NCBI GenBank assembly: GCA_903876885.1
Contig: CAIRBP010000070.1
Span: 1-58,417 of the forward strand
Direction: 5' to 3'
Length of the DNA stretch: 58,417 nt
Source: an uncultured Burkholderiales bacterium
GTDB lineage: Bacteria; Pseudomonadota; Gammaproteobacteria; Burkholderiales; Burkholderiaceae_C
The notes beneath the pieces were generated by a model. The model had not been told where the DNA came from, made no database searches, and worked only from the letters and a program-made list of their open reading frames with translations. Within the stretch, counting starts at the first letter, position 1; every line of letters begins with the position of its first letter. Both the position numbers and the translations under genes were made by a program. Shown here one piece after another: positions 15,418-40,036 of this stretch.

Positions 15418-15435
15418 TTGAGTATATAAACAATC

Positions 15436-18811: not shown

Positions 18812-18845
18812 GAGCGAAGCAAAGCCTTGAGGCTTCGTATCGCTC
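18812..18845 (-). terminator. Nested hairpin, probable operon terminator
   Basis: Outer arms GAGCGA/TCGCTC enclose an inner AAGCC-TTGA-GGCTT stem. On the minus strand the structure is followed by TTGTTTTTG. It lies about 175 bases past the Liv binding-protein stop and may end the 19-28 kb operon. Confidence 0.45.
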
Positions 18846-18872
18846 ATTTTAACTGATCGGAATTTTGATGAT

Positions 18873-18887
18873 CCGTCAAGTTGACGG
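18873..18887. repeat. 15-base palindrome
   Basis: CCGTCAA-G-TTGACGG is a perfect dyad with a one-base centre. Its size and symmetry suit a regulator half-site pair, and it lies about 160 bases upstream of the LysR start. Confidence 0.4.
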
Positions 18888-18937
18888 TCTAAATAAAACT
18901 TAGTGCGACAAGGACTAATGAAATATCATCCATCAGC

Positions 18938-18985
18938 TTTCTGGTACCGGTCTATTTATATTCGCTTACTAACCGGTACCAGAAA
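18938..18985. repeat. 14-bp perfect inverted repeat
   Basis: TTTCTGGTACCGGT (18938-18951) and ACCGGTACCAGAAA (18972-18985) are perfect reverse complements with a 20-base loop. It starts 35 bases past the stop of the Liv binding-protein gene and has no following T-run on either strand, so it is not a typical intrinsic terminator. An mRNA 3'-end-protecting hairpin or a protein-binding dyad fits better. Confidence 0.7.
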
Positions 18986-19020
18986 TATAGAAAATCTAAT
19001 AAAACTTATTTGGAGGATTT

Positions 19021-20322: not shown

Positions 20323-20356
20323 AATTTATCTCCGTTTAATTGTTTTCTAACTCAAT

Positions 20357-21109: not shown

Positions 21110-21123
21110 TTATTTCTCCTTAT

Positions 21124-22557: not shown

Positions 22558-22575
22558 TCAATTCTCCTTTATTAT

Positions 22576-23984: not shown

Positions 23985-23986
23985 GT

Positions 23987-24922: not shown

Positions 24923-25830
24923 TAAATTCTCCTTGATTGCGCCACTGTGAAAAGCCCGTTCGGACGCACCAGTAAAACAGCAAGCATGATGATGTACGGA
25001 ATCGCGACTTCAAACTCAGGCGCAACATAGACAGCGATTGAACGGGCTAAGCCGATCAAGAGAGCAGTAATAAGCGTACCCGTTATCTGTCCTAACCCGG
25101 CCGTAGCGACTACAGTGAATGAAACAACTATCGTCTCAGCTCCGATGCCAGGCGAGAGGGAGGAGACCGGTACAGCTAGTGCGCCTCCAAGAGCGCCGAA
25201 AATAGCGCCAATGATGAATACGATCGTTCCGATTTTATTTACATTAACCCCTAATGCCGAAGCGACCTCAGAGTTATGCGTAATTGCGACAGTTTGCCTG
25301 CCAAGTGATGTTCTTTTTAAGAAGTAGTTCAGGCTAAAGTAAGCAATAAGAGCGATACTAGGAATAACAATGATCTGATAAACAGTATATACAACATCAA
25401 ATATTTCTACGGTTCCAAGTCTCGTAACTATTTCGCCGGCTGAGTATGGAGAAGTTCCCCAAATTAGTTTTTGAATATCCTCGAATATTAAAAAAGCTGC
25501 AAAAGTAATTAACAGCTTTATCACTGGATCTTTTTTGTGAAAGTACCTTAGTAATCCCATTTCTAAAATCAAGCCAACCAAAACACCAACGATAAGTGCA
25601 GCCAATATCAGACTAAGAAACAAGAGTGGTGTAGATTCAGTACCGTGCTGAATCGCAAAACTAGTGATACTTGAGGCAGCGTAACCCCCGAAGGCATAAA
25701 GACTTCCGTGAGCAATATTTAATACTCCTAAGACTCCGAATATTAATGTCAATCCTAGGGAGACTAAGAACAGCAATCCAGCGTAGGAAATGCCGTCTGC
25801 CACACCAAGTATGAGTGTATCTAAGTTCAT
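24922..25830 (-). CDS. livH: ABC transporter permease LivH
   Basis: A 302-residue inner-membrane permease. The N-terminus carries the LivH pattern GLTLIFGVLGVLNIAHGSLYAFG (about 26-48), and the coupling-loop region reads TSLGRQTVAITHNSEVASALGVN. About eight hydrophobic segments are visible. It overlaps the CoA-ester lyase gene by 4 bases (ATGA arrangement), tying the importer to the catabolic enzymes. Confidence 0.93.
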   Translation of the reverse strand: MNLDTLILGVADGISYAGLLFLVSLGLTLIFGVLGVLNIAHGSLYAFGGYAASSITSFAIQHGTESTPLLFLSLILAALIVGVLVGLILEMGLLRYFHKKDPVIKLLITFAAFLIFEDIQKLIWGTSPYSAGEIVTRLGTVEIFDVVYTVYQIIVIPSIALIAYFSLNYFLKRTSLGRQTVAITHNSEVASALGVNVNKIGTIVFIIGAIFGALGGALAVPVSSLSPGIGAETIVVSFTVVATAGLGQITGTLITALLIGLARSIAVYVAPEFEVAIPYIIMLAVLLVRPNGLFTVAQSRRI

Positions 25831-26684
25831 TGAATACCTGCTTGTTGAAGAATTTGTTGGGCCATTAGTACCACTGGACGATCGACCATCTTTCCGTTAA
25901 ATTGAACCGCAGCTCCATTTGAATTTACGGCAGCAGAAATGATTGCCTGTGCATTTTCTATTTCTACTGTAGAGGGTTTAAAACCCTTAATTACAGGACC
26001 TACTTGGGTTGGATGTATACAGAGTTTGCCCGCAAAGCCGATTCGTTTCGCACTCTCTATATGAGCCTTAATCAGCTCCGTAAATTGAAAATTAACAGTA
26101 ACCCCGTCTATTGGGGCAGCTAAGTTGAATAGTCGACTAGCAACAACCATTTCAAATTTAAGAGGTAATAATTCAGACTCATCTAAACTGCATTTCATAT
26201 TCAGATCTGCTTGCAAATCAATGTTTCCAAGTGTTACTCTGATAACGCTTGGGTGAGACGCTATGCTTTTAAGTTGGTCAATCCCTTTTGCACTCTCGAT
26301 CATAGGGATAAAAGAGATTGGACGGCGCAGTCGATCTTCAATCTCTGAGAGCTGTGCAAGGGATTCAGCTTTAGGTAAAACAATTGCGTCAATACCAACC
26401 GAGCTCACTAACTCTAAATCTTGTTCAATGAAAGGCGTATTAATCGCATTTGTGCGCAGGATAATTCGGTTTGGATACGCCTTTAATAAATTCGGTAATT
26501 CATCTCTAAGAATTCTAAATGTTGCTAGCTTGTCATTTAAAGGGACTGCGTCCTCAAGATCGACAATAATAATTTGAGCCTCAGAATTTAATGCTTTACG
26601 GACTATATCTACCTTGTTACCAGGAGCAAATAAAAAGGCTTGTGCACCTTGAATTGCTCTTTTATGTTCTGTAGTAGTTATCAT
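25827..26684 (-). CDS. HpcH/HpaI (CitE-like) CoA-ester lyase
   Basis: A 285-residue TIM-barrel lyase of the CitE/malyl-CoA/citramalyl-CoA lyase group. DLEDAV (42-47), R77, PMIES with E130 and NIDLQADL with D156/D160 supply the Mg and CoA-thioester site; FAGKLCIHP and MVDRPVV are typical late blocks. Such enzymes split beta-hydroxyacyl-CoAs into a ketoacid or glyoxylate plus an acyl-CoA. Immediately upstream is a CaiB-type CoA-transferase, so an acid may be activated and then cleaved. Which acid is not readable from sequence. Its stop overlaps the livH start. Confidence 0.9.
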   Translation of the reverse strand: MITTTEHKRAIQGAQAFLFAPGNKVDIVRKALNSEAQIIIVDLEDAVPLNDKLATFRILRDELPNLLKAYPNRIILRTNAINTPFIEQDLELVSSVGIDAIVLPKAESLAQLSEIEDRLRRPISFIPMIESAKGIDQLKSIASHPSVIRVTLGNIDLQADLNMKCSLDESELLPLKFEMVVASRLFNLAAPIDGVTVNFQFTELIKAHIESAKRIGFAGKLCIHPTQVGPVIKGFKPSTVEIENAQAIISAAVNSNGAAVQFNGKMVDRPVVLMAQQILQQAGIQ

Positions 26685-26768
26685 GTCAGTAAAGTGAAAT
26701 TTGTTTATCTTGATAATATTTATCTTTGATTTTGGAAGTTTCTATTCAAAACGAATAATTGGATTTTT

Positions 26769-27962
26769 TTAAATAGCCCTCGAGCTTTTCATCTCAGCAA
26801 TTTTTGCATCATTAAATCCAATCTCTTTAAGAATTGAATTGGTATGCTGTCCAACAAAGGGGATGGGGTCCATGCGATAGGTGAACTCATTATTTATTCC
26901 AGGCGGCAATAAAGCCGGTACGTCACCGACTGGGGTAGCTATATAAGTCCAGCGATGTCTTGCACCTAGTTGCGGATGATCCCAAACGTCTTTCATGTCA
27001 TTCATTCTTGCATTGGCAATCTTTGCACTATCAAGGCGAGCCTCAACCTCTGTAATTGAGAGTTCTTTAAAGCATTCACAAATGATCGATTTCAAAGATT
27101 CTCTTTGCTCATGGCGCTTAGTATTGGTATTAAATCTATCGTCTATGGCTAGCGCAGCGTTTAGCAGAACCTTCTCACAGAAAATATGCCACTCTCTTTC
27201 GTTTTGAAGTCCTAGCATCACAGTTGCACCATTAGCAACAGGGAATGGTCCGTATGGGTAAATAGTTGCATGGGACGCTCCCGATCTAGCAGGTGGTTCT
27301 GCGTTGTCGTATGCATAATAAAGTGGGAAGCCCATCCACTCACTCAAGGCCTCTAACATGGATACATCAATATGAGAGCCAAGCCCTGTTTTCTCTCTCA
27401 GTAACAATGCAGACAGTATGTTGGTATAAGCGTACATTCCTGCGGCAATATCTGCAATGGAGCAACCCGCCTTTGATGGTGTTTCGGGCGTACCCGTAAC
27501 GGAGAGAAAGCCTGCTTCACTTTGAATCAAAAGATCGTAAGCCTTTTTATCTCTATATGGGCCAAATCCCCCGTAACCAGAAATATCGCAAACAATCAAT
27601 TTAGGATTTATTTTTTTCAAGTCTTCAGCAGACAATCCCATCCTCGAAGTTGCTCCGGGTGCCAAATTTTGAACAAAAACGTCCGCGGTTTCAAGCAACT
27701 TAACAAGAGCACTCATTGCATCTTGGTTCTTAAGGTCAAGAGTAAGACTCTCTTTGGAGCGATTTGTCCACGTAAAGTGCGATGACATGCCGTTTACGCG
27801 TTGGTCATATCCTCTTGCAAAATCTCCAACCTCTGGTCTCTCAATTTTTATAACTCTAGCCCCCAAATCAGCAAGTTGCCTTGTACAAAACGGAGCTGCA
27901 ATGGCGTGCTCAAGCGACACCACGGATATATGGTCTAGGGGTCTTACTTTTTGTGTATTCAT
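26769..27962 (-). CDS. CaiB/BaiF family CoA-transferase (class III)
   Basis: From the ATG at 27962 the product is 397 residues. It has PLDHISVVSLEHAIAAPF, LADLGARVIKIERPEVGDFAR, KAYDLLIQSEAGFLSVTG with the catalytic Asp (AYD), and SIADIAAGMYAY, the class III CoA-transferase blocks. The frame stays open 26 codons further, but that stretch contains a perfect 10-bp dyad (28017-28039) and lacks protein-like character, so the shorter start is preferred. It heads the cluster containing the CitE-like lyase and the Liv importer, 84 bases ahead of the lyase gene. Confidence 0.92.
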   Translation of the reverse strand: MNTQKVRPLDHISVVSLEHAIAAPFCTRQLADLGARVIKIERPEVGDFARGYDQRVNGMSSHFTWTNRSKESLTLDLKNQDAMSALVKLLETADVFVQNLAPGATSRMGLSAEDLKKINPKLIVCDISGYGGFGPYRDKKAYDLLIQSEAGFLSVTGTPETPSKAGCSIADIAAGMYAYTNILSALLLREKTGLGSHIDVSMLEALSEWMGFPLYYAYDNAEPPARSGASHATIYPYGPFPVANGATVMLGLQNEREWHIFCEKVLLNAALAIDDRFNTNTKRHEQRESLKSIICECFKELSITEVEARLDSAKIANARMNDMKDVWDHPQLGARHRWTYIATPVGDVPALLPPGINNEFTYRMDPIPFVGQHTNSILKEIGFNDAKIAEMKSSRAI

Positions 27963-27988
27963 AACTTTAATGATTACATTAAAGTTAT
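27961..27988 (-). promoter_or_regulatory. 11-bp perfect inverted repeat over the CaiB start
   Basis: ATAACTTTAAT (27961-27971) and ATTAAAGTTAT (27978-27988) are perfect reverse complements with a six-base loop. In the mRNA the 3' arm holds AAAG and the first two bases of the start codon, so the hairpin could mask translation initiation. As DNA it could equally be an operator. Confidence 0.6.
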
Positions 27989-28016
27989 CAAGTGTGAATC
28001 GCGTTTTAGAGCATGC

Positions 28017-28039
28017 TGTGTTCAAATTATTTGAACACA
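28017..28039 (-). promoter_or_regulatory. 10-bp perfect palindrome, candidate operator
   Basis: TGTGTTCAAA and TTTGAACACA are perfect reverse complements around a TTA centre, 55 bases upstream of the CaiB ATG. A 23-base dyad of this kind is typical of a dimeric repressor or activator site. No regulator gene sits next to it, so the binding protein is unknown. Confidence 0.6.
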
Positions 28040-28202
28040 AGGGTTACTCTTTAGTTCTTAAGTTTTATTTATACGATGTTATTCGTTTAATAATCTTTTA
28101 ATTTAATTACTATGTATGAATAAATTCACGAGCAATTTATTTTTATAACAGTATTTATATTTAATAAGACTTGGAGATCTATCGATCTTAAAAAGCTGTA
28201 AC

Positions 28203-28276: not shown

Positions 28277-29143
28277 TTAGACACTTGAGCAATGCCGAGA
28301 TATGCATGTATCCAAAACCTCCTCTCCTGGTCTGTCCCACCAATCTTGATCTGAGAAGATCTCTACCTCACTGAACTGGCAATATCCAGCACTCTCCACC
28401 CACCCTCTTATTTTGCGTATTTCGATTACACCATCACCCATCATGCCTCTGTCATTAAGCAGATCCCGCGTGGGAGTTAGCCAATCACATACATGAAATG
28501 CCATTAACCTGTCCTTACCCGCTCTTTGTATCTGCTGTTTTAACTTTGGATCCCACCACGTGTGGTAAACATCAAGAGCAACACCTAACCGCCCTTTTCT
28601 TTGGGGATCCAAAGCGTCACATATATCTAAAGCTTGCTCAAGGGTGTTGACACACGCCCTTTCTGCAGCCTGCATTGGATGCAATGGCTCTATAGCTAGC
28701 GGTATTCCTATTTCAACAGCGTATTCAAGCGCTTTTTGGATACCATCATAAACTTGTGTCCTTGCAAGCTGAATGTCTGTATAGAGTGCTTTGCCTTGTA
28801 AAGCACCTGGTAATGAGCCTACCACTAAAACCAAACAAGGCGCGTTAAGCGTTTTAGCCTCGTCGATAGCTCGTCGGTTATCGTCGTAAGCAGCTCCAAT
28901 GCCCTTTGCATCTACTGCTGGAAAAAAGCCACCACGACAATAACCACTCAATTGCATGGAGTGAGCTCTCAGTTGCTTTGCTACTTTATCAATACCAACA
29001 GCTGCCACTTGGTCACGCCAAGGACTTATCGCTCTGATATTTCTCTTGGCACATTCATCAATTATTTTGTCCAATGACCACTGTTTTTTTACCGTCGCCG
29101 TGTTAATTGATAACCACTCATGGCTTTTTGTAAAGTCGCGCAT
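28277..29143 (-). CDS. Xylose-isomerase-like sugar phosphate isomerase/epimerase
   Basis: A 288-residue TIM-barrel protein of the AP endonuclease 2/IolE-like family. Metal-site elements include PLAIEPLHPM, LGVALDVYHTWWDP and VEIFSDQDWWD near the C-terminus, where the Glu closes the site. Members isomerise or dehydrate ketoses and keto-inositols. I chose the ATG at 29143 with GGAGT ten bases upstream over a GTG four codons earlier. It is the last gene of the ten-gene operon, 23 bases after the 3-hydroxyisobutyrate-dehydrogenase-like gene. Confidence 0.88.
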   Translation of the reverse strand: MRDFTKSHEWLSINTATVKKQWSLDKIIDECAKRNIRAISPWRDQVAAVGIDKVAKQLRAHSMQLSGYCRGGFFPAVDAKGIGAAYDDNRRAIDEAKTLNAPCLVLVVGSLPGALQGKALYTDIQLARTQVYDGIQKALEYAVEIGIPLAIEPLHPMQAAERACVNTLEQALDICDALDPQRKGRLGVALDVYHTWWDPKLKQQIQRAGKDRLMAFHVCDWLTPTRDLLNDRGMMGDGVIEIRKIRGWVESAGYCQFSEVEIFSDQDWWDRPGEEVLDTCISRHCSSV

Positions 29144-29166
29144 AGAAATTACCACTCCATTTTCTT

Positions 29167-30105
29167 TTATTGTTTAAACTCTCTTTGGATTTGACGAATA
29201 ATTGCAGCATTATCTAAATCGCCATCCCCATTTGCTACTGCACTTTTCATAAGCGTTGCATGCGTCTCAGATAACGGTAATCGCTGTCCTTTTTTACTTG
29301 CAGCAGCAATCATTAACTCAACGTCCTTCAAATGCTGACGGATCCTTGACTGGGGTAGATAGTCCTCACGCACCATCTTTAAACCTTTATTAACAGCTGC
29401 ATCTGAGCGTGCGGGGGTTTGCAAAACTAAATTCAAAAAAGTGTCTCTGTCAATTCCCATTTTTTCTGCAAAAATCATTCCCTCCGCAAAAGCAGCTCGG
29501 TTAAGCCCTAACACCAAATTAGTAGCCAATTTAGCCCTAGCAGCCATACCAACCTTACCAACGCGTATTTGATTTGAAGAGATGCAATTCAAAATATCAG
29601 AGACATTTTCTAAGTTTGTACTCTCACCTCCCAATAGCATCGTGGACGTGCCTTCTTTAATCTGCTCACTTGATCCAGACAGTGGAGCCTCTATAAGGTT
29701 TATTGGACTACCTTCTAATTGAAGGTCTAACGTCTCCAGTTTTTCTGGGTCTCCTGTGGAGCAATCAATAATATGAATTTTTTTTGAAGTGGCTATAAAT
29801 TCGTGACTTTTGCAATACTCAATTGCTTCATTAATAACTTGTATAACCCCACTCGTTTCATAAACTGTCAATACAATCAAACTAGAAATACTTATTACCT
29901 CTTTCACTGACTTAGCAGCAGTGAAGCCGATGTTTTCAAAATTAGATCTAGCGAGATCACTTATATCAAAACCTACACAACTGTACCCGGCATCTTTAAG
30001 TCTTTGCGCGACTGAATTACCCACTAAACCCAAACCAATTAAGCCAATCGTTTCAATTGAACTATTAGAGCGCAGCAGGGCTGGGTTATTTTTATAAATA
30101 GACAT
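29167..30105 (-). CDS. 3-hydroxyisobutyrate/6-phosphogluconate dehydrogenase-like protein
   Basis: A 312-residue beta-hydroxyacid dehydrogenase. The Rossmann loop is GLIGLGLVGN (21-30), the substrate motif is DCSTGDP (114-120), the middle motif is PLSGSSEQIKEGTSTMLLGG (141-160), and the catalytic Lys is K192 in AARAKLATNLVLG. All family elements are present. Such enzymes oxidise 3-hydroxyacids such as tartronate semialdehyde, 3-hydroxyisobutyrate or sugar-acid derivatives. It lies 22 bases after the SDR gene in the ten-gene operon. Confidence 0.9.
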   Translation of the reverse strand: MSIYKNNPALLRSNSSIETIGLIGLGLVGNSVAQRLKDAGYSCVGFDISDLARSNFENIGFTAAKSVKEVISISSLIVLTVYETSGVIQVINEAIEYCKSHEFIATSKKIHIIDCSTGDPEKLETLDLQLEGSPINLIEAPLSGSSEQIKEGTSTMLLGGESTNLENVSDILNCISSNQIRVGKVGMAARAKLATNLVLGLNRAAFAEGMIFAEKMGIDRDTFLNLVLQTPARSDAAVNKGLKMVREDYLPQSRIRQHLKDVELMIAAASKKGQRLPLSETHATLMKSAVANGDGDLDNAAIIRQIQREFKQ

Positions 30106-30127
30106 ACTATAGAGGAGCAGAGCTAAG

Positions 30128-30835
30128 TCAGCGAGTCACAGACGAACCACCACAAATTGCGATATCTTGCCCAGTGATCGCTCCCGCATTTTCACCAAGT
30201 AAATAAAGGGTTAATGAGGCCACTTCCTCGGGTTTAATGAGCCTTCCGATCGGGGGAGTTTGCGGGGCACGGCTAGACCGAGTTGGATCAACTAACATGG
30301 GCGTATCCGTTGCAGCTGGTGATATAACGTTTACAGTCACCCCAGCACTAATTACTTCTGCAGCCCAACTTCTCGCAAGCGATACGAGGGCAGCCTTGGT
30401 TGCAGCGTATTGGCTCCTGTGCGCAATTCCTACCGATACTCTACTTCCTATTAAGATCATTCGGCCAAATCCTTTAGAGATCATTGCAGGTAAAATTCTG
30501 TCCGCAAGTTTTGACGCAACCTCCACGTGGGTGCGCCACATAAGATCTCCTGCCTGAAAGTCTAAGTCACCAAGGGATCCCACCCTTAGTAGACCAGCAG
30601 CGTGAACTACTGCACTGGGTACTACGCTCCCTAAAATAAGGTCCAAGACCCTTTTTAACTCTTGCGTGTCATTTAAGTCAATTTCAATTGAGTGAAACTG
30701 AGTATTATTTAAATTCACTTTTTTTTGATCTAATCCGTAAACGCACCACCCGTCTAATAATAAATTGAGTGCAATTGCATATCCAATCCCAGAGCTTGCT
30801 CCGGTAACGATTGCGGTTTTTTTTGATTCACTCAT
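30128..30835 (-). CDS. Short-chain dehydrogenase/reductase
   Basis: A 235-residue SDR. The cofactor loop is TGASSGIG (11-18), and the catalytic residues are S131, Y143 and K147 (YAATKAA). SPAATDTPM and GQDIAICGG close the domain. D36 after strand 2 points to NAD. It is the eighth gene of the operon, 20 bases after a Bug gene. It probably interconverts a hydroxyl and a keto group in the substrate; the true substrate is unknown. Confidence 0.92.
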   Translation of the reverse strand: MSESKKTAIVTGASSGIGYAIALNLLLDGWCVYGLDQKKVNLNNTQFHSIEIDLNDTQELKRVLDLILGSVVPSAVVHAAGLLRVGSLGDLDFQAGDLMWRTHVEVASKLADRILPAMISKGFGRMILIGSRVSVGIAHRSQYAATKAALVSLARSWAAEVISAGVTVNVISPAATDTPMLVDPTRSSRAPQTPPIGRLIKPEEVASLTLYLLGENAGAITGQDIAICGGSSVTR

Positions 30836-30855
30836 CAGATCTATTTAATAAAAAT

Positions 30856-31830
30856 CTACTCAACACTTATTTTTTTATCAGCAATTATTTTTGCAGAAAC
30901 CGCAATCTCATTTGCCTGATACTTAATAAAATCCGCCTCACTCCCTCCGGCAGTAAATATTCCGTCCGCAAGCAAACGATCGTGCATATCTCCTTCTAAA
31001 GCTTTGTTAACTGCAGCGTTGAGCTTCTTAGAGATTTCACTTTGTAATTTAGCAGGTCCCCAAAGCCCGTACCAACTCGAACAATTAAATCCATTTATAG
31101 ATTCACTCGCAGTTGCTATTTCAGGCAGGCTAGGTAATCTTTTATTCGAAGTAACGGCAAGCATTTTTAGTTTACCGCCCTTGTAAAACTGAACCGAGCC
31201 GAGCACTGGGTCTATGAATCCGTCTATTTGCCCACCTACAAGATCAACCATCGCAGGACCAGTACCTTTATACGCAACAATAGAAATATTTGATCCTAAT
31301 GCCTGCTCTAATTTAACAGTGCATAAGTGTCCTGCTGATCCGATAGATCCTACTGCAAAGTTTAAGCTATCCGAGTGAGTCTTGGAGTAGTCCATGAGAC
31401 CCTTCAAGTTTGAGACTCCTAGTTGGTTACCTACACTAATGGATAGTGGAGCTACTGCAACCAATCCTATAGGCGAGAAATCAGTTTGAACTTTGTAAGG
31501 TACCGACTTCATCGTCAAAGGAGCAGTTACAAAGGTACTAGCATTGAATAACAATGTATAGCCATCGTTCGGAGCTTTCGCAACTATATCCGCTCCAATG
31601 ACCCCGTTGCCTCCAGGCTTGTTTTCAATATAAAAGGTTTGACCTAATTGCTCACCTAACTTAAGGGCAAGCATTCGACCAACTTTATCTAGAGTCCCGC
31701 CTGGTGGAAACGGAATAATTACTCTTACTGACTTATCCGGATAAGTCGTGCTTTGTTGCGCTTGTAGAGTTGAACAACTGCAGATACCTATTAATACTGA
31801 AGAAATAATTTTTAAATATTTAACTTTCAT
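30856..31830 (-). CDS. Bug/TctC-family periplasmic binding protein
   Basis: A 324-residue protein with signal peptide (ending near TLQAQQS) and Bug blocks: VRVIIPFPPGGTLDKVGRM, FYIENKPGGNGVIGA, DGYTLLFN, VAYKGTGPAMVDLVGG and VTSNKRLPSLPEI. It sits inside an operon that already encodes a separate NMT1-type binding protein and its ABC permease, so two unrelated receptors share one transcript. No TctAB is present. It may feed a distant TctAB carrier or sense an extracellular compound. Confidence 0.92.
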   Translation of the reverse strand: MKVKYLKIISSVLIGICSCSTLQAQQSTTYPDKSVRVIIPFPPGGTLDKVGRMLALKLGEQLGQTFYIENKPGGNGVIGADIVAKAPNDGYTLLFNASTFVTAPLTMKSVPYKVQTDFSPIGLVAVAPLSISVGNQLGVSNLKGLMDYSKTHSDSLNFAVGSIGSAGHLCTVKLEQALGSNISIVAYKGTGPAMVDLVGGQIDGFIDPVLGSVQFYKGGKLKMLAVTSNKRLPSLPEIATASESINGFNCSSWYGLWGPAKLQSEISKKLNAAVNKALEGDMHDRLLADGIFTAGGSEADFIKYQANEIAVSAKIIADKKISVE

Positions 31831-31844
31831 TTCGTGCTGTCTAT

Positions 31845-33047
31845 TTAAAAGCCGTGAATACTTAAAAGATTCTTCATTCTATTAATCGCTAAATCAGGGT
31901 CTTCTATCAAATTAGCTTGATCTGCTAATTTAAAAAGCTCTACGAAATGCATAAGTGATCTGGTGCTTTGTTGCCCCCCAACCATCGTAAAGTGACTTTG
32001 ATGCCCACCCAACCAAGCCATAAATACAACGCCAGTTTTGTAAAACCTAGTTGGTGCTTTAAAGATGTGTCTTGAAAGTGGCACTGTAGGACCCAGGATC
32101 TCGTGAAATTTATCTAAATTCCCATCTGCTAGTTCTGCCATAGCAGCACTAGCTGCAGGTGCAATCGCGTCGAATATCCCCAACAGTGCGTCGCTATGCT
32201 GATTTACAGGTGCAGCGCCCACGCCGTCGCCTGCAATGAGCTCAGCGTAGTTAAAATCATCCCCCGTATACATCCTTACGCCTTTTCCGTCTATTCCGCC
32301 CTGAGCGGGTAGCCCCCGTCGTGCGTGAATTTCCTTATCCTTGTCAAGGAGTGACATTTTGATTCCATCGACTTTAGAGGCATGCGCTCGAATGACGCTC
32401 AAAACAGTTTGGGTTGCTTTATCTGTGTCTTTATCTCCCCAGTAACCCGTTAAAGCTGGGTCAAACATATCACCCAACCAATGCAAAATAACTGGCTCCT
32501 TAGCTTGACGGAGTATGTGGTCATAAACCCGCTCATAATCTGCTGGGCTTTTTGCTACTCGTGTTAATGCTCGACTGGCCATGATGATGAGTTTGCCACC
32601 CGCTTTCTCTATTGCTTCCATTTGTTGGTCATAAGCTTTGATAACTTCATCAATGTTTTTAACCTGATCAAGATCTAGGTGATCGGTACCGCAACCTGAA
32701 GCGACTAATGCCCCGGGGTGACGCTTTGATGCATCGATAGAGCGTTTAATAAGCTCAAGGGATGTAGGCCAATCTAGCCCCATACCTCTTTGCGCTGTAT
32801 CCATCGCCTCTGCAACACCAAGTCCTAAAGACCAAAGCCTCTCACGAAATGCTATCGTTGCATCCCAATCTATTGCACAGTCAATCCAAGGATCAATGCT
32901 TGCTTTGGGGTCCGAGACGACGTGCGCAGCAGAGTAAACAATTCGGCTGAATTTTGCACCTGCTTTTGGTTTAACAGGCGTATGTCCAACGAGTGTATAG
33001 GGCGATAGTTTGCCTTGGGTATCGGGTAAATGAATATGATGAGCCAT
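31845..33047 (-). CDS. DUF993 protein (dihydrodipicolinate synthase-like)
   Basis: A 400-residue member of the DUF993 branch of the DHDPS/N-acetylneuraminate lyase superfamily. K230 in VDGIKMSLLDKDKE lines up with the Schiff-base Lys of class I aldolases in this fold, so aldolase or dehydratase chemistry on a ketoacid is plausible. Other blocks are VASGCGTDHLDLD, ILHWLGDMFDP and FMAWLGGHQSHF. It is longer than classical DHDPS (about 290), mostly at both ends. It follows the Gfo/Idh/MocA gene by 24 bases. The reaction of DUF993 proteins is, to my knowledge, not settled. Confidence 0.88.
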   Translation of the reverse strand: MAHHIHLPDTQGKLSPYTLVGHTPVKPKAGAKFSRIVYSAAHVVSDPKASIDPWIDCAIDWDATIAFRERLWSLGLGVAEAMDTAQRGMGLDWPTSLELIKRSIDASKRHPGALVASGCGTDHLDLDQVKNIDEVIKAYDQQMEAIEKAGGKLIIMASRALTRVAKSPADYERVYDHILRQAKEPVILHWLGDMFDPALTGYWGDKDTDKATQTVLSVIRAHASKVDGIKMSLLDKDKEIHARRGLPAQGGIDGKGVRMYTGDDFNYAELIAGDGVGAAPVNQHSDALLGIFDAIAPAASAAMAELADGNLDKFHEILGPTVPLSRHIFKAPTRFYKTGVVFMAWLGGHQSHFTMVGGQQSTRSLMHFVELFKLADQANLIEDPDLAINRMKNLLSIHGF

Positions 33048-33071: not shown

Positions 33072-34235
33072 TTAAATTTTGAGTGGAGGAACATCTATCC
33101 AACGCCGCTCCTTCCACGACTGAAGAGCACTCTCTACGAGTTGAACTCCCTTTGCACCCTCAGGTAAGGTCCATCTGTAAGGCTCGTTTTCTGCAATATG
33201 CCTTATAAAGTGTTCCCACTGAATTTTGAATCCATTGTCGTAAATCTGCGTATCAGGGACTTCTTGCCACTGATCATAAAAATTCATAGATTGTTTAACA
33301 TCAGGATTCCAAACTGGTCGCGGCGTATTAACTCGGCTCTGGGCTTTACAGGAGGTTAAGCCCGCAACTGCAGAGCCGTGAGTACCGTCTACATGAAAGG
33401 TAACTAAATCTTCGCGGTTCACACGCGTTGTCCAAGACATATTAACTTGTGCGATGACTTTCTCACCTTGATGGCCCTTAAGCTCAAAAGTTGCATAAGC
33501 GGCGTCGTCTGCAGTTGCCTCGTAGGCCTTATTAGCCTCGTCCCAACGAGTCGGTATGTGGGTGGCGCCTAAACAAGATACAGACTGCACTTCACCAAAG
33601 ATATTATCAAGAACATAACGCCAGTGACAGACCATATCCAAAATGATGCCACCTCCGTCCTCTGACCTGTAATTCCAACTAGGTCTTTGAATAGGTTGGA
33701 GATCCCCTTCAAAAACCCAGTACCCAAATTCAATTCTTACGCTAAGCATTTTTCCAAAAAAACCAGAGCGTCTCAGCATATCTAATTTTCTGAGTCCAGG
33801 CAGAAATAATTTATCTTGAACTGCCCCGTGTTTGATACCTGATTTCTCAGCCAATCGAGCAATTTCAACTGCCTCATTCAAATTGGTGGCAATCGGTTTC
33901 TCACAATAAACGTGCTTACCCGCTCTGATTGCTTGAGCAAGCAGCGTAGGCCGCATCTGGGTCGTACCCGCATCAAAGAAGACCGTATCGTCCTTGTTTT
34001 TAAGCGCAGCGTCCAAATCAGTTCCGTAACGCTCTATATTGTTAGCCTTAGCGAGTGCCGCAATCTTCTCTGCGTTACGCCCTATCAAAATCGGGTCGGG
34101 CATGACTTTGTCCCCATTGGAGAGGACAACACCACCTTGATTTCTTATAGCGACGATAGAGCGAATCAAATGCTGATTCATCCCCATACGTCCTGTCACG
34201 CCGTTCATAATAATTCCAAGTCTTTTAACAGCCAT
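33072..34235 (-). CDS. Gfo/Idh/MocA-family oxidoreductase
   Basis: A 387-residue NAD(P)-dependent sugar or inositol dehydrogenase-like enzyme. The Rossmann loop is NGVTGRMG (11-18) and the catalytic-Lys motif is HVYCEKPIA (108-116). The C-terminal domain has WNYRSEDGGGIILDM and CHWRYVLDNIFG. The GVTGRMG form recalls dihydrodipicolinate-reductase-type loops and may be a subfamily mark. AGGAG stands five bases before the ATG. It directly precedes the DUF993 gene, suggesting that the aldolase-like enzyme uses its keto product. Confidence 0.92.
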   Translation of the reverse strand: MAVKRLGIIMNGVTGRMGMNQHLIRSIVAIRNQGGVVLSNGDKVMPDPILIGRNAEKIAALAKANNIERYGTDLDAALKNKDDTVFFDAGTTQMRPTLLAQAIRAGKHVYCEKPIATNLNEAVEIARLAEKSGIKHGAVQDKLFLPGLRKLDMLRRSGFFGKMLSVRIEFGYWVFEGDLQPIQRPSWNYRSEDGGGIILDMVCHWRYVLDNIFGEVQSVSCLGATHIPTRWDEANKAYEATADDAAYATFELKGHQGEKVIAQVNMSWTTRVNREDLVTFHVDGTHGSAVAGLTSCKAQSRVNTPRPVWNPDVKQSMNFYDQWQEVPDTQIYDNGFKIQWEHFIRHIAENEPYRWTLPEGAKGVQLVESALQSWKERRWIDVPPLKI

Positions 34236-34263: not shown

Positions 34264-35697
34264 TTAATAATTGTGGGGAAAGGAATTCCAATCTACGCCA
34301 GCACCTTCAACTGCGGTTGCAAATCCAGTTTTCTTAAGTGAACTAAGATCGATCGATCCGTTGTTAATTTGCAATCGGGTGACTCCTTGTTCTTTAGCGT
34401 AAAGATTTGGGTGGTTTCTTATAAAAGAAGATTGCTCACCATCCGCAATACCCTGCATCCCGTTGACGTAATGATGGCCGTTGCGTTCCACGTGATCTAA
34501 ACCAAGAAGACTAACCAGAGCCAGGTCTTGTTGAACGCCTACGCCGACTTGCATGGTTAAATCTTCACCGGACTGAAAAAAAGAAATACCTTTATCTATA
34601 TTGACTTCGTTTAATTGTTCAGTCCTAGCAGCATTGATCAAGGATTTATAAATTCCTTTACAGCTTTTGCTGGATACGCCTGTATATCCAAGTTCGGTAG
34701 CTTTTAGATAAGTATCAAGGTCAGCGTCTGACTCATCGATCAAAAGGGGTTTATGTCTGGCAATCTCGCTAACATTAGCCTGCATGGCTATGTCTCTGTG
34801 CAGGGGTTGTTCAATGAAAATGATTTTTCTAAACAACGATGTTAAAGCCGGAGTTTCTTTAAATTGATTAAAAAATTCTAAAAAAGATGACTCATCTCTA
34901 AATTGCTCGTTCCCGTCTAGCGTTACCCCTAGAGTGACACCGTCTATGATGGGCGCGATTTGAGACAGACGAGCAATATCACTTGAAAGATCACCGCTTA
35001 ATTTAATTTTATAATATTGATGTCTATACCTGGAAGCGATTTCCTTGAGGGTTACAGGTAAATCATCTCTCGGTCTAGTGATATCGCTTGATTCCTCGTC
35101 AATAGAGTCTAAGAGTCCTACGGTATGTCTTGCCGCAATTGAGGGTTTACTGGTGAGTTTTCCTAAAAATTTATTAATATCAAAACTCTTTAAATCCGAC
35201 AATTCAACAAGACTAGTGCACTCTAATCCGACTTGATTGGTATTGACTGCAGAATCAAAACTTAATCCGCAAAAATGACACAAAGCATCAATCACTGCTC
35301 TATCTATAAGCGCAGGGCCGTAGTTTGAAGTAAGATGATTTAATCGATTTTGCTCACCTATTTTGATAATGCTTGAGTAATAATGGCTAAAGTACTGCCA
35401 TGCACTCCTAGGTAATGCGTCGGATAGATAGGCATTCCGCGCTATTCGTAAAGAATTTCTAAGTTGCTCGAAATTATCTTCATTTGAAAGGTCCTTGTTT
35501 TTATCAAACCATTTAGGGACCATCATCTCGGCTGCACAGCCTTGAACGACTTTGCCACTGGCAAATTCGACATCAACACTCACGTAAACCTGGGGGCACT
35601 GAGTTAGAGTTACAACACCAAATCTAAATGGAAGTCGCAACATCACCTCTCGCTCAAAGAAGCGAATACTCCTGATGACAAACTGAGGAGCATTCAC
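34264..35697 (-). CDS. Long enolase-superfamily protein (mandelate racemase/MLE type)
   Basis: A 477-residue protein with the enolase-superfamily catalytic layout: K230-x-K232 in YYKIKLSGD, D261 in LDGNEQ, E296 in FIEQP, D321 in LIDESD and K344 in SSKSCKG. The three acidic metal ligands and both Lys bases indicate proton abstraction next to a carboxylate, as in muconate lactonising enzyme or dipeptide epimerase types. Typical relatives have 350-400 residues; here an N-terminal capping region of about 200 residues and a C-terminal extension make it longer. It sits between the ABC ATPase and the Gfo/Idh gene. Racemase, dehydratase or cycloisomerase activity cannot be separated by eye. Confidence 0.85.
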   Translation of the reverse strand: MNAPQFVIRSIRFFEREVMLRLPFRFGVVTLTQCPQVYVSVDVEFASGKVVQGCAAEMMVPKWFDKNKDLSNEDNFEQLRNSLRIARNAYLSDALPRSAWQYFSHYYSSIIKIGEQNRLNHLTSNYGPALIDRAVIDALCHFCGLSFDSAVNTNQVGLECTSLVELSDLKSFDINKFLGKLTSKPSIAARHTVGLLDSIDEESSDITRPRDDLPVTLKEIASRYRHQYYKIKLSGDLSSDIARLSQIAPIIDGVTLGVTLDGNEQFRDESSFLEFFNQFKETPALTSLFRKIIFIEQPLHRDIAMQANVSEIARHKPLLIDESDADLDTYLKATELGYTGVSSKSCKGIYKSLINAARTEQLNEVNIDKGISFFQSGEDLTMQVGVGVQQDLALVSLLGLDHVERNGHHYVNGMQGIADGEQSSFIRNHPNLYAKEQGVTRLQINNGSIDLSSLKKTGFATAVEGAGVDWNSFPHNY

Positions 35698-35718: not shown

Positions 35719-36498
35719 TTAATGATCAAGGGTGCCCTTAGAGAAGAAATGAGCACGAATTTGACTCGAGTAATGTCCAAACTCTCCTGACCCCATCAAC
35801 TCTAACGTGCGCGGTCTTGGTAAGTCGATGTCATAAATTGCTGAAATAGAGCCCGGTCGCTCACTCATCACGATGACCCTATCAGAGAGAAATATCGCCT
35901 CAGGAATGCTATGCGTAATTAATAGAACCGTTTTCTTAGATTTAGACCAGATATCTTGTAATTCCAGATTCATTTTCTCTCTAGTCATAGCGTCAAGGGC
36001 ACCAAAGGGCTCATCCATCAATAATATTGACGGGTTATGCAGCAATGCCCTACAAATAGATACTCTTTGCTGCATACCGCCTGATAATTGCTTAGGGAAT
36101 TTATGCTCAAAACCTTTCAGTCCAGCCATTTCAATAAGTTGATGTGCGCGCTCAAGAGATTCCTCTCGAGGCAGCCCTCGAATCTCTGCTTGCAGCAAAA
36201 TATTTTCGATCACTGTTCTCCAAGCAAGTAAGACTGAACTTTGAAAAACAATTCCAACGTCACGTTGTGGGCCTGAAATAGGTACACCAGACAGGGTTAA
36301 TTGACCGCTAGTTATGGGCAACAGTCCAGCAACCATTTTGAGCAAGGTGCTTTTACCGCAGCCCGATGGACCTACGATTGAGACGAATTCCCCTTGATTA
36401 ATATAAAAATCAAGGGGTTTTAACGACTCAACGGGCCCTTCTCTGCTATCGTAAACTTTAGATACACCTAAAGCTTCAATTAAACGGGACTGTGACAT
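35719..36498 (-). CDS. SsuB/TauB-type ABC ATP-binding protein
   Basis: A 259-residue ATPase with Walker A GPSGCGKST (43-51), signature LSGGM (138-142) and Walker B LLMDEPFGALD (159-169). This form is typical of nitrate/sulfonate/taurine-type importers. Partners are the NMT1-type binding protein and the permease directly upstream (28-base gaps). It couples ATP use to uptake of the operon's substrate at the inner membrane. Confidence 0.93.
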   Translation of the reverse strand: MSQSRLIEALGVSKVYDSREGPVESLKPLDFYINQGEFVSIVGPSGCGKSTLLKMVAGLLPITSGQLTLSGVPISGPQRDVGIVFQSSVLLAWRTVIENILLQAEIRGLPREESLERAHQLIEMAGLKGFEHKFPKQLSGGMQQRVSICRALLHNPSILLMDEPFGALDAMTREKMNLELQDIWSKSKKTVLLITHSIPEAIFLSDRVIVMSERPGSISAIYDIDLPRPRTLELMGSGEFGHYSSQIRAHFFSKGTLDH

Positions 36499-36526: not shown

Positions 36527-37540
36527 TTAGTTATTTGGTGGTAAAAAATCTAAAGTCACATAGTCCTCAGCCTTACCCCTTGTTGCAGGATCCATTCCTC
36601 CGTATTGGACCAACAAATCTAGCGTATCGTTTACGTTCTTTGTTGTTACTCTAAAAGGCTTATCTTTCATTGTCTCTTTCGTATGGTACAAGGCAATTGA
36701 CTCTTTCATACCGACAATTAATGTTGCACGTACACCCGCTTTAGAGTTGGCTTTAAGCATCGCATCAACTGCGCTTTCTGGATTTTTTTCTGCAGCCTCT
36801 ACTGCCTTAGTAGTTGCCCTCATAAAGCGTTTTACTAAGTCTGGGTTCTCAGTCAATAGCGCTTTGTTTGTGATGATCCCAGAAGAAATTTGGTTAATAC
36901 CTGAGTCCGCGAATTTGATAGGAGTTACGGGCTTACCCGTTGCATCTTGTAACTTAATGGCTTGATCCATTACGTATCCTAAAAGCAAATCAGCCTGTCC
37001 ATTCATTACGGCATTAAGCTTAGTTTGTCCATCCCCAGCTACTGTTTTAATTTGGTCTGGATTGATACTATTAGCTTTTAAAAATAGAGGCCACATTTGT
37101 GACATTGAGTCACCGGGAGTAATTGCGACTGTTTTGCCAATAATATCCTTGGGTGTTTTAATATTTTTTTCCGTAAAACCCATTACTGACATAGGACTGA
37201 GTTGAAACAAAACACCTGTTGACTTTAAAGGCGCGCCTTTTGCAGCGGCTTTAATCATTGTTGTTACGTCTATGTAGCCAAAAGTTGCAGACTTTGCAGC
37301 AACAGCTTGCGCTGTCACTGCAGAGCCTCTGCCCTCTTGGATCTCTAGATCAATACCTTCCTCAGCGTAAAAGTTTTTCTCTTTTCCCAGAAAGAACGGT
37401 GCATGCTCACTGTACAAATACCAATTAAGCATGAGGGTTACTTTCTCCATTGGTTTGTTTTGAGCACTAGCGCAGGTGCACAAAGCAGCTAAAGATAAGC
37501 CAACTAAAAGAACTGAACGTCTTATCGAATGCATTTTCAT
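36527..37540 (-). CDS. NMT1/THI5-like ABC substrate-binding protein
   Basis: A 337-residue periplasmic protein with signal peptide (1-26, ending CASAQ). The NMT1-family start is VTLMLNWYLYSEHAPFFLG, and EGRGSAVTAQAVAAKSATFGYID follows. This group captures pyrimidine precursors, riboflavin, aromatic acids or sulfonates for SsuABC-like importers. It is the second gene of the operon, 28 bases after the permease. A second in-frame ATG two codons in is possible. The ligand is unknown but should be the inducing substrate or a precursor. Confidence 0.92.
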   Translation of the reverse strand: MKMHSIRRSVLLVGLSLAALCTCASAQNKPMEKVTLMLNWYLYSEHAPFFLGKEKNFYAEEGIDLEIQEGRGSAVTAQAVAAKSATFGYIDVTTMIKAAAKGAPLKSTGVLFQLSPMSVMGFTEKNIKTPKDIIGKTVAITPGDSMSQMWPLFLKANSINPDQIKTVAGDGQTKLNAVMNGQADLLLGYVMDQAIKLQDATGKPVTPIKFADSGINQISSGIITNKALLTENPDLVKRFMRATTKAVEAAEKNPESAVDAMLKANSKAGVRATLIVGMKESIALYHTKETMKDKPFRVTTKNVNDTLDLLVQYGGMDPATRGKAEDYVTLDFLPPNN

Positions 37541-37568: not shown

Positions 37569-38366
37569 TTAGTAAATTTGATTTTGCGAGGGGTGCCACG
37601 GGATCATGAATCTTTCAAATAAGTCCACGACCATAAAGAGAACTACACCAATAGTTGATAAAACGACTAGTGCAGCAAACATGAGCGGCAAGTCAAAATT
37701 GCCGTTTGCAACTTGCAAAACATATCCAATTCCTGAGTTCGATCCCACAAATTCGCCAACTACTGCGCCTACAACAGCAAGTGTGATGGCAACCTTTAGG
37801 CCGCTAAAAATTGCAGGAAGAGCTTGGGGCAAAGAAAATTTAAAAAAAGTCTGGAACTTACTAGCACCCATAGATCTTGCGAGATCAACCATATCACTCT
37901 CAACAGATTTAAACCCCATGACGGTGGACACAACTACAGGAAAGAAGCCAAGTAAGAATGCTGAAATAATTTTTGGAAAAATACCAAACCCGAACCAAAC
38001 CACAAACAATGGAGCAATTGCGACTTTAGGAATGCTTTGTGAAAAGACCAAAACCGGATACAGATATGACTCAACAATTCTTGAGTATGAAATAAGCATC
38101 GCGAGAGGAATTCCGATAATGATCGTGAGAGCGAATCCCCCAAGTGTTGCCTGGGTGGTTTTCCAACTCTCTGATAGTAGCCTTGGCCACTCCAAATAAA
38201 GTTGCTCAATGACCTGGGCAGGAGCAGGTATCAGATAGGGGGCAATTTGAAAGAGCCTGATAGCTAAATCCCACATCACAACCATCATTACTATCAGTAA
38301 AAATGGCTTGACACTTGGCGACAGCAAGATCTTGCGAATCAGGGAAGTGTTCATCGATAAAGGCAT
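37569..38366 (-). CDS. SsuC/TauC-type ABC permease
   Basis: A 265-residue inner-membrane permease with six hydrophobic segments and the EAA-type coupling loop DLARSMGASKFQTFFKFSLPQALPAIFSG (split by family as EAA---G---P), matching nitrate/sulfonate-type permeases. It is the first gene of the ten-gene operon. The ATG at 38366 lies only five bases after the TetR-type palindrome and lacks a ribosome site; an in-frame ATG at 38354 has GGA upstream and may be the real start. Confidence 0.92.
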   Translation of the reverse strand: MPLSMNTSLIRKILLSPSVKPFLLIVMMVVMWDLAIRLFQIAPYLIPAPAQVIEQLYLEWPRLLSESWKTTQATLGGFALTIIIGIPLAMLISYSRIVESYLYPVLVFSQSIPKVAIAPLFVVWFGFGIFPKIISAFLLGFFPVVVSTVMGFKSVESDMVDLARSMGASKFQTFFKFSLPQALPAIFSGLKVAITLAVVGAVVGEFVGSNSGIGYVLQVANGNFDLPLMFAALVVLSTIGVVLFMVVDLFERFMIPWHPSQNQIY

Positions 38367-38370
38367 CCAA

Positions 38371-38386
38371 TTAACTATTTAGTTAA
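38371..38386 (-). promoter_or_regulatory. Palindromic operator in front of the ten-gene operon
   Basis: TTAACTA-TT-TAGTTAA is a perfect 16-base dyad. The identical sequence recurs before the TetR gene at 39123-39138. Layout and spacing match the RutR-type consensus TTGACCA-NN-TGGTCAA with purine and pyrimidine transitions only. It overlaps the last base of the -10 box, the classic place for a repressor. Confidence 0.85.
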
Positions 38387-38414
38387 TTATTGACACCATG
38401 CTCTCTCATGTCAA
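38386..38414 (-). promoter_or_regulatory. Sigma70-type promoter of the ten-gene operon
   Basis: On the minus strand a perfect -35 TTGACA (38414-38409) stands 17 bases ahead of AATAAT (38391-38386), a five-of-six -10 box. Transcription would start inside the adjoining palindrome, giving a very short leader before the permease gene. Confidence 0.75.
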
Positions 38415-38470
38415 TAGCTTTTAGGGTAAGCCCCGATAGGGATTGAATGGAGGTCGACGTAATTCAATAG

Positions 38471-39112
38471 TCACAAAAGTACGTACCCCAGTATCAAATC
38501 AATCATGTGCGAGAGTCGTTGTACCTTTGCTTTAGGACTTAGCAGATTTTTACCAAAGATCGTAGATAGAGTGTGGTTGTTGGATAAGTAAAAGTAACAA
38601 ATTGAAGCAATTGAGATGTAGAGTTGTATGGGGTCAATACCGCTTCTAAACAGTCCCTTTTCTTGTCCTTTTAGTAGAACAGAACCCAGCATTTGAATCA
38701 AAGGGGAGGTCAACTCTCTTATATGTTTAGATTTCTTTAAATGAGTAGCTTCGCTCTGATTTTCACTATTCAAGAGCGAGATAAATTCTGGGTGCTCCAG
38801 GTAGTAATCCCAGGTAAACGTAATCAACTGCCTTATTGCTTGAATGGGGTCAATTTGATCCAAATTCAAAACCTGCTCAGCCGCCCTAATCTCTGAGTAA
38901 GCTTGCTCCAAGACCTCTAAAAACAACTGATCTTTACTGTTGAAATAATAATAAATAAGTCTCTTATTCAATCCAGCGCGTTCAGCGATGCTATCGACTC
39001 TTGCTCCTGATAGGCCGTGAGCGGCAAACTCTTGTTGAGCCGCCAAAAGAATAACCCTCCTGGAGTCAGCCTTGGTCTCTGGCTCAGTATTTAGACTCTT
39101 AATTTTTTTCAT
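38471..39112 (-). CDS. TetR-family repressor of the ten-gene operon
   Basis: A 213-residue TetR-type regulator. The N-terminal helix-turn-helix (about 18-62) reads RRVILLAAQQEFAAHG and VDSIAERAGLNKRLIYYYFNSKDQL. The C-terminal ligand domain (about 80-213) has FTWDYYLEHPEFISLLNSEN, resembling the RutR-like group. The same 16-base palindrome lies ten bases upstream of its ATG and directly upstream of the operon that follows it on the same strand, so autoregulation plus control of the operon is strongly implied. The inducer is presumably the imported substrate or an intermediate. Confidence 0.93.
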   Translation of the reverse strand: MKKIKSLNTEPETKADSRRVILLAAQQEFAAHGLSGARVDSIAERAGLNKRLIYYYFNSKDQLFLEVLEQAYSEIRAAEQVLNLDQIDPIQAIRQLITFTWDYYLEHPEFISLLNSENQSEATHLKKSKHIRELTSPLIQMLGSVLLKGQEKGLFRSGIDPIQLYISIASICYFYLSNNHTLSTIFGKNLLSPKAKVQRLSHMIDLILGYVLL

Positions 39113-39122
39113 TCAATAAAAA

Positions 39123-39138
39123 TTAACTATTTAGTTAA
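39123..39138 (-). promoter_or_regulatory. Palindromic operator in front of the TetR gene
   Basis: This is the second exact copy of TTAACTATTTAGTTAA. A -10-like TATGAT (minus strand, 39144-39139) abuts it exactly as at the operon promoter, and GGTGT precedes both -10 regions. This is the expected arrangement for TetR autoregulation. Confidence 0.85.
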
Positions 39139-39247
39139 ATCATACACCAAATGACCGTACCCGACTTAAACTGCAGATCCAGTAAAACACTGACGTGTGA
39201 AATCTGTTCTGTCTATTTAAATAAATATTTTCGCCCAACCAAGGGAT

Positions 39248-39631
39248 CTAGATCAAAGCACAAGACTGAAGTTGTTCAAGTGTCACGAATTCCAAAGCTT
39301 TTAAGTGGGTACTCGCAAGTATGACTGGGGGTGCAAAACCCGCTAGATAAGCCTCCTTCCACCTCAGTGCACACAAGCACCATTTTTGACCTGGCTTTAA
39401 TCCTGCAAATCGGTATTCAGGACGGGGCGTCATCAAATCATTTCCCTGTTTAAGAGAGAACTCTAAAAATCCTTGTGTAAGTTTCGCGCAAATAACATGA
39501 CTACCCCGATCACTCTCATCTGTAGTGCAGCAACCGTCTCTGAAGTAGCCCGTCAACGGATCGTAAGAGCAAGGCACTAATGGGGTCATTAAAACGTTCA
39601 GATCTTCATCCTGCATAACCGTCAAACTCAC
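39248..39631 (-). CDS. DUF2237 family protein
   Basis: A 127-residue protein with the DUF2237 pattern: LMTPLVPCSYDPLTGYFRDGCC near the start, HVICAKLTQGFLEFS, GNDLMTPRPEYRF and GLKPGQKWCLCALRW. The conserved Cys residues (CS, GCC, CLC) suggest metal or redox chemistry, but no function is established for the family. An alternative start is the ATG at 39616. It is a single gene just downstream of the tRNA terminator. Confidence 0.88.
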   Translation of the reverse strand: MSLTVMQDEDLNVLMTPLVPCSYDPLTGYFRDGCCTTDESDRGSHVICAKLTQGFLEFSLKQGNDLMTPRPEYRFAGLKPGQKWCLCALRWKEAYLAGFAPPVILASTHLKALEFVTLEQLQSCALI

Positions 39632-39724: not shown

Positions 39725-39801
39725 TGGCGGAGCGGACGGGACTCGAACCCGCGACCCCCGGCGTGACAGGCCGGTATTCTAACCACCTGAACTACCACTC
39801 C
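39725..39801 (-). tRNA. tRNA-Asp (GTC)
   Basis: A 77-base tRNA with encoded CCA. Acceptor GGAGTGG pairs with CCGCTCC (one G-T wobble). The anticodon loop CTGTCAC gives GTC, and the T loop is GGTTCGAGTCC. It is third in the Ala-Glu-Asp transcript. Confidence 0.97.
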
Positions 39802-39817
39802 TGGTAGCGTTGTGTTC

Positions 39818-39847
39818 GTTGCAACTACAACCTTCGTTGTTTGCAAC
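39818..39847 (-). other. Hairpin in the tRNA-Glu/tRNA-Asp spacer
   Basis: GTTGCAA...TTGCAAC forms the outer seven-base stem, and ACAAC-CTTC-GTTGT forms the inner stem. It fills half of the spacer between two tRNAs and is likely a processing structure in the precursor RNA. Confidence 0.55.
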
Positions 39848-39862
39848 CAAGTACAACAAACT

Positions 39863-39938
39863 TGGCGACCCTACGGGGATTCGAACCCCGGTACTCACCG
39901 TGAAAGGGTGATGTCCTAGGCCTCTAGACGATAGGGTC
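39863..39938 (-). tRNA. tRNA-Glu (TTC)
   Basis: A 76-base tRNA with encoded CCA. Acceptor GACCCTA pairs perfectly with TAGGGTC. The anticodon loop CTTTCAC gives TTC, and the T arm is GGGGTTCGAATCCCC. It lies next to gltX, which encodes the synthetase that charges it. Confidence 0.97.
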
Positions 39939-39960
39939 AAAACCTAGACTTAGACACTCA

Positions 39961-40036
<76 letters not shown>

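Follow-up and report, generated by a model that had tools for sequence, protein, structure and literature searches.

The window analyzed here is a stretch of 58,417 nucleotides from an uncultured Burkholderiales bacterium (contig CAIRBP010000070.1 of assembly GCA_903876885.1). It contains a gene for a TetR-family protein and, downstream of it, ten same-strand genes (38366-28277, reverse strand) with intergenic gaps of 11-28 bp; about 236 bp separate gene 10 from the next same-strand ORF (Table 1). A perfect 7-2-7 dyad of 16 bp, TTAACTATTTAGTTAA, precedes both tetR (operator A, 39123-39138) and the ten-gene operon (operator B, 38371-38386). The original prediction held that these are its only copies in the window, and an exact search bears this out.

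Table 1. Features of the tetR-operon locus, in coordinates of the window.
Feature	Position	Strand	Basis or remark
Operator A, tetR promoter	39123..39138	-	exact dyad; identical in closest relative
Operator B, operon promoter	38371..38386	-	exact dyad
Putative tetR -10, TATGAT	39139..39144	-	position inferred; directly precedes operator A
Operon promoter, TTGACA-17-AATAAT	38386..38414	-	predicted; hexamers and 17-bp spacing kept in L105
tetR, TetR-family repressor gene, 213 aa	38471..39112	-	TetR_N HTH and TetR_C_29 (PF17938)
Gene 1, ABC permease	37569..38366 (likely start 38354)	-	PF00528
Gene 2, NMT1/SsuA-type substrate-binding protein	36527..37540	-	PF09084
Gene 3, ABC ATPase	35719..36498	-	PF00005
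Gene 4 (g4), divergent enolase-superfamily enzyme	34264..35697	-	conserved residues and fold
Gene 5, Gfo/Idh/MocA oxidoreductase (core)	33072..34235	-	3oqb, 635 bits
Gene 6, DUF993, DHDPS-like barrel (core)	31845..33047	-	4dnh
Gene 7, TctC-type binding protein	30856..31830	-	profile search
Gene 8, SDR oxidoreductase	30128..30835	-	profile search
Gene 9, tartronate-semialdehyde-reductase/HIBADH-like	29167..30105	-	below NCBIfam cutoffs
Gene 10, xylose-isomerase-like TIM barrel (core)	28277..29155	-	3ju2, 3qc0

Both dyads lie on predicted promoters. A sigma-70-like scan of 38200-39400 returned the operon promoter as its sole match (11 of 12 positions), agreeing with the predicted TTGACA 17 bases from AATAAT, and found no -35 consensus for tetR. 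Shuffled versions of this segment average 2.4 matches, so the scan by itself proves little. Both copies had also been said to abut -10 hexamers; this is the case for TATGAT at operator A, whereas AATAAT overlaps operator B by one base. The listed ATG of gene 1 (38366) stands 4 bp from operator B and is not conserved, and the ATG at 38354, aligned with an ATG in the closest relative, is the likelier start.

The g4 protein has no Pfam match and no NCBIfam match above cutoff; it shows the enolase fold, a KxK motif, acidic metal ligands and a C-terminal lysine. A Foldseek search with a model of the DUF993 protein (pLDDT 80) returned 4dnh first, followed among the matches listed by 49 of DHDPS or its family, with TM to target of 0.71-0.80. 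Its K230 (DGIKIS), a candidate for the Schiff-base lysine of a class I aldolase/lyase, is invariant in sets of 14 and 20 sequences. The solved relatives 4dnh (DUF993) and 3ju2 (isomerase) are SMc04132 and SMc04130 of Sinorhizobium meliloti, deposited under names without specific function, and the SMc04130-SMc04133 region resembles the operon in its isomerase and DUF993 homologues. A study of PhaR (PMC12542648) includes SMc04132 and SMc04133 ('putative oxidoreductase') in one of its tables. A search of open-licence literature found no paper on DUF993 and none on the isomerase structure. Adjoining the operon, positions 11420-28040 of the window hold two CoA-transferases, a CitE-like lyase, a branched-chain-type ABC transporter, dehydrogenases, a LysR, an amidohydrolase, an acyl-CoA dehydrogenase and another TctC.

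How readily such dyads arise by chance is an immediate concern, the more so as the window has a GC content of 43% and the sites are AT-rich. Among ten perfect 7-2-7 dyads in the window, TTAACTATTTAGTTAA alone is repeated, and none of 100 dinucleotide shuffles contained a repeated dyad of any kind, in keeping with the original estimate that two perfect copies so placed are very unlikely to be accidental. Many random copies across the genome would have counted against the prediction; no further exact copy was found in the assembled genome (2,222,044 bases), an absence that is not final since this assembly is 68% complete. With up to two mismatches, TTAACTATTTAGTTAA occurs at three additional places, on contigs C95, C46 and C112. 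The C95 near-match, TTGACTATTTAGTCAA, was set aside, its surroundings being read as a 5S-23S rRNA spacer. On the same contig (L004, 1501-1516) a RutR-like dyad, TTGACTAAATAGTCAA, differing by transitions only, was noted in this putative spacer. Mismatch-tolerant counts in the window are less distinctive: TTAACTATTTAGTTAA with up to three mismatches gives four matches (both sites on both strands) against 1.25 expected, a count reached by 7 of 100 shuffles, and the family consensus TTMACYRNNYRGTKAA with at most one mismatch gives two against 0.58 expected, equaled in 14 of 100. As these counts lie near chance and the promoter scan is weak, the case rests on comparison between loci.

Orthologous loci (n = 45) were defined by a TetR of at least 55% identity among 200 family genomes, and sites were scored as matches out of 14 to TTMACYRNNYRGTKAA, usually at a threshold of at least 12. 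With the window excluded, operator A attains this threshold in 41 of the 45 loci (38 of 40, plus three of the five fetched last), operator B, downstream of tetR, in 35 (35 of 40, plus none of the last five), and the two together in 33. When the window is counted with the 40 relatives, the figures are 39 of 41 for A and 36 of 41 for B; outside the tetR region, the 740,718 background positions of these 41 loci contain 24 matches at 12 or above, six at 13 or above and one at 14. The loci include near kin, and the counts are thus not independent. Operator A is absent at this threshold from four loci (L061, L071, L286 and L288) and operator B from ten; the contig of L061 starts 230 bp before the tetR match, and in L288 the gene row ends with tetR, while two sites lie ahead of its leading TctC gene.

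The consensus TTMACYRNNYRGTKAA is derived from the loci it scores, and a matrix was therefore trained on A sites alone; this matrix and a set of named loci are partial exceptions to that circularity. In 36 of 41 loci, fewer than 0.5% of 7,248 null windows reached the best matrix score in the B region; L065, L066, L067, L074 and L075 fell short of this mark. The named set (80 loci less six duplicates, mostly Variovorax and not independent) has operator A at 12 or above in 71 of 74 loci and operator B at 13 or above in 72 of 74; neither operator was seen in L181 or L183. In the closest relative (L105, from the same record as L246; TetR identity 82-83%), operator A is identical and operator B differs at two positions, and the operon promoter retains its -35, -10 and spacing amid changes at many other bases. 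Relatives retain the dyad at both locations, in forms that include TTCACCA-NN-TGGTGAA, where each half has changed. Loss of the dyad in orthologous loci had been named beforehand as grounds for refutation, and most loci keep both sites. The identity of the twin copies to each other calls for qualification: it is incidental, recurring in one of 40 relatives (L072) and in none of the 80 named loci. The reading of repressor, site and target itself gains support from conservation at two places and from copies at background level away from the locus.

This locality was gauged in 31 genomes chosen for carrying the TetR. They hold 53 exact consensus sites, of which tetR loci account for 43 and remote positions for ten; one genome (G122) has no exact site, and a reversed-pattern control gave nine sites in all. 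Four of the remote sites, in three genomes, stand by pathway genes. In G198, whose tetR locus is without g4, the remote locus comprises two sites, an epimerase-family gene, TctC, TctA and g4. That of G097 comprises a DHDPS-family gene, TctC and g4, and the site beside TctC scores 13. In G022 the remote site precedes a TctC gene; nothing homologous to genes 1-3 or 7 was seen at its tetR locus, where weak Liv-type matches lie on the far side of tetR. The other six remote sites, with no window-gene homologue within the 8 kb read, are chance-like, and with the control at nine we rejected a genome-wide regulon as the general case. In G009 a separate contig (L225, read over 16 kb) carries nine of the ten genes, with no upstream site and a single match scoring 12, inside a gene. 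Copies of g4 away from tetR occur in five genomes, with sites in G097 and G198 and none in G009, G090 and G163; the remote pieces of the last two begin near the genes, which limits the upstream sequence searched.

The type of dyad tracks the recognition helix of the adjacent TetR. The window protein carries NKRLIYYYF. Among 36 rows of class I, 34 share the NKRLI helix, and the 40 loci of this class contain 48 TTMAC sites and no TCAAC or RTAAC sites. As a control, 20 paralogous TetR loci (37-50% identity) yielded no exact TTMAC site; those with an NKQ helix carry TCAACYRNNYRGTTGA, a TCAAC dyad, in nine of nine cases, and the other paralogues in none of 11. Erwinia likewise combines an NKQ helix with a TCAAC dyad, adjoined by a second dyad, CTAACTAGTTGGTTAT. 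Within the genus of the window, TetR proteins of 51-55% identity with helices of the NKRML type are accompanied by RTAACYRNNYRGTTAY at four of five loci; the L249 TetR has no RTAAC dyad in a stretch that ends about 1.3 kb upstream, nearer than the site lies in its kin. A phylum-wide search of 27 loci paired NKRMLYHYF with RTAAC dyads in five of five loci (nine sites, with no TTMAC or TCAAC site), on both sides of tetR in three of them, and found such dyads in none of the other 22. Kinship has been left in these counts; one family (f51) supplied four of the five loci and a second family the fifth. Exceptions to the pairing are Nitratireductor, with NKALIYSYF and CTAACCAGTCAGTTAC, and L281, with NKAMLYHYF and CCAACTAGTTGGTTGA; the Chelatococcus and Paracoccus loci hold no consensus site scoring at least 12. 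In a tree, eight NKQ rows form one clade and Erwinia stands apart on a long, weakly placed branch, so that one or two origins of the NKQ type are both possible.

From these pairings we tentatively propose that a branch of TetR_C_29 regulators, many of whose members stand beside the DUF993 pathway, may read a fixed 7-2-7 frame (ACYR-NN-YRGT core) in which a few helix residues set the outer bases. The pairs of such a code, put forward with the same reserve and with somewhat less than even confidence, would be NKRLI with TTMAC, NKQ with TCAAC and NKRMLYHYF with RTAAC. At L189-L199 and L209-L213, a second TetR_C_29 regulator (NKQ, TCAACYRNNYRGTTGA) is found beside an NMT1-type ABC transporter; four of the five NKQ paralogue loci read at length have an extra copy of the g4 enolase-superfamily gene. 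The NKQ paralogue loci could possibly represent a sister pathway.

Conservation, locality and helix type together make it very probable that this TetR acts locally, repressing both its own gene and the neighboring catabolic operon until a ligand releases it. A TetR dimer would bind the 7-2-7 dyad (TTMACYRNNYRGTKAA), which spans the -10 to the expected transcription start, and at the tetR and operon promoters would block RNA polymerase, the tetR copy serving for self-limitation and the operon copy for control of uptake and breakdown. We infer release from the behavior of the family: a small molecule of the pathway, probably its substrate or an early intermediate, would bind the C-terminal domain, and, as this frees TetR from both sites, the uptake and breakdown genes would be switched on together. 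TetR and QacR are the classical local self-regulated repressors. The present system resembles them in a repressor beside its target and in dyads at promoters; unlike theirs, its target looks catabolic rather than efflux-related, and tetR and the operon are arranged in tandem rather than divergently. In those features that sequence can test, it appears to work like a classical local TetR repressor.

Resemblance to RutR raises the question of whether this might be a RutR orthologue with a drifted site and an operon for pyrimidine use. The RutR consensus is TTGACCANNTGGTCAA, with TTGAC as half-site. The 'RutR-type' label of the original prediction remains apt for the 7-2-7 geometry, common to both systems, and for the window copy, which differs by transitions only, but not for the family, whose half-site position 3 is never G (97 C, 44 A, one T and no G in the 142 half-sites of 71 sites), or for the protein. 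In a Pfam profile search the window TetR exceeds the gathering scores of PF00440 and PF17938, and the latter replaces TetR_C_3 (PF08362), the C-terminal domain of E. coli RutR, to which it is 27% identical. RutR equivalog models score far under their cutoffs (62.6 bits against 368 for TIGR03613 and 52.3 against 230 for NF011584), and profile searches recognized no rut enzyme among the ten operon genes. An E. coli rutA-rutR dyad, TGGACTAAACGGTCAA, was found by a search that also gave a match in 18 of 200 shuffles. RutR has been described as having a palindrome of about 16 bp ahead of both its own gene and the operon beside it (PMC10891134). The two systems thus share a TetR-family protein, a palindrome at its own gene and the neighboring operon, and a geometry; they differ in domain (PF17938, not PF08362), in half-site (TTMAC, not TTGAC) and in gene set. 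We therefore rejected membership in RutR and regard orthology as extremely improbable.

That another regulator reads the dyads, leaving the nearby TetR a bystander, might be argued from the presence in these genomes of further TetR_C_29 regulators whose dyads share this geometry; the tracking of helix by dyad in the TTMAC, TCAAC and RTAAC sets makes this very unlikely. Some TetR-family proteins activate, and sequence alone is compatible with activation of the operon from the same sites, alone or combined with repression. Operator B, however, covers the last base of the predicted -10 and the expected start point, a position suited to blocking the polymerase, and we consider activation unlikely, if slightly less so than a bystander TetR. 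RNA hairpins or chance AT-rich repeats with no protein reader would accord with the base composition and with mismatch-tolerant counts not far above those of shuffles, yet relatives keep a dyad at the same two places with both halves changed, which renders this explanation scarcely credible.

While the two operators are widely kept, the operon they flank varies in content. At a homologue threshold of at least 35% identity, the Gfo, DUF993 and isomerase core is present in 32 of 40 loci, 29 of which have both sites at 12 or above; g4 occurs in 20, ABC transporter genes in 8-10, genes 7 and 8 in four and gene 9 in three. The transporters are swapped. The stretches read at L043, L050, L071, L075, L285, L286 and L289 yielded no Gfo gene. 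Genes 7-9 are also present in G009. The same-genus relative L246 is without them between DUF993 and the isomerase, so the window operon may have gained them; they look like a three-gene insertion (29167-31830). DUF993 is found in 14 of 84 genomes of the genus, the window's own included, which makes the operon accessory, and L246 alone of the 13 others has TTMAC twins. At an odd junction in L245 (8963-9163), a Gfo match with 96% identity over 67 residues has no further Gfo part upstream and may be either a truncated operon or an assembly join. In the four records examined out of 64, from plasmids of Nitratireductor, Chelatococcus, Paracoccus and Erwinia, the core is accompanied by a TetR of 41-49% identity. 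Upstream of tetR in the window (39725-40036) are tRNA genes for Asp, Glu and Ala in a row, with a DUF2237 gene between; the patchy presence of the operon in the genus would fit insertion by tRNA genes.

The pathway served by these genes is, with about even confidence, perhaps the breakdown of a sugar acid or a related polyhydroxy acid, a reading suggested by the fold families, the tartronate-semialdehyde-reductase-like gene, the glycerate kinase neighbors and the transporter types. Pathways for D-glucarate and galactarate employ an enolase-superfamily dehydratase, an aldolase, tartronate semialdehyde reductase and glycerate kinase, and transporters of the types in the operon carry carboxylates or sulfonates. 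The likeness extends to the enolase-superfamily and tartronate-semialdehyde-reductase-like genes, and to a gene named glycerate kinase beside the core in Erwinia and Paracoccus, which scores below the NCBIfam cutoff. The operon differs from those pathways in its lyase family (DUF993), in its additional Gfo/Idh/MocA and isomerase-like genes and in the occurrence of g4 in half of the loci. Substrate would be taken up by a swappable transporter and oxidized by the Gfo/Idh/MocA enzyme; isomerization or dehydration by the xylose-isomerase-like enzyme and, where present, the enolase-superfamily enzyme would follow, and DUF993, in the role of a DHDPS-type lyase, would carry out the cleavage.

Among the matches listed in searches of open-licence literature, no description of this regulon was found under its gene set, RutR or regulon collections or operator sequence type, nor under Variovorax or Comamonadaceae TetR operators or structural-genomics context. 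What appears new is the regulon, with its pathway and its pairing of helix and dyad; systems of this kind are already known. An observation made in raw sequence has become a regulon that passes comparative tests, and three families whose solved relatives lack a specific function (3oqb, 4dnh and 3ju2/3qc0) are brought under one repressor and one likely inducer. Finding a compound that releases TetR would give a lead to the DUF993 pathway's substrate. The helix-dyad pairing offers a concrete specificity hypothesis for TetR_C_29 proteins; if the helix code is true, operators, and hence regulons, would be readable from the sequence of the regulator, atop what may be an undescribed sugar-acid pathway.
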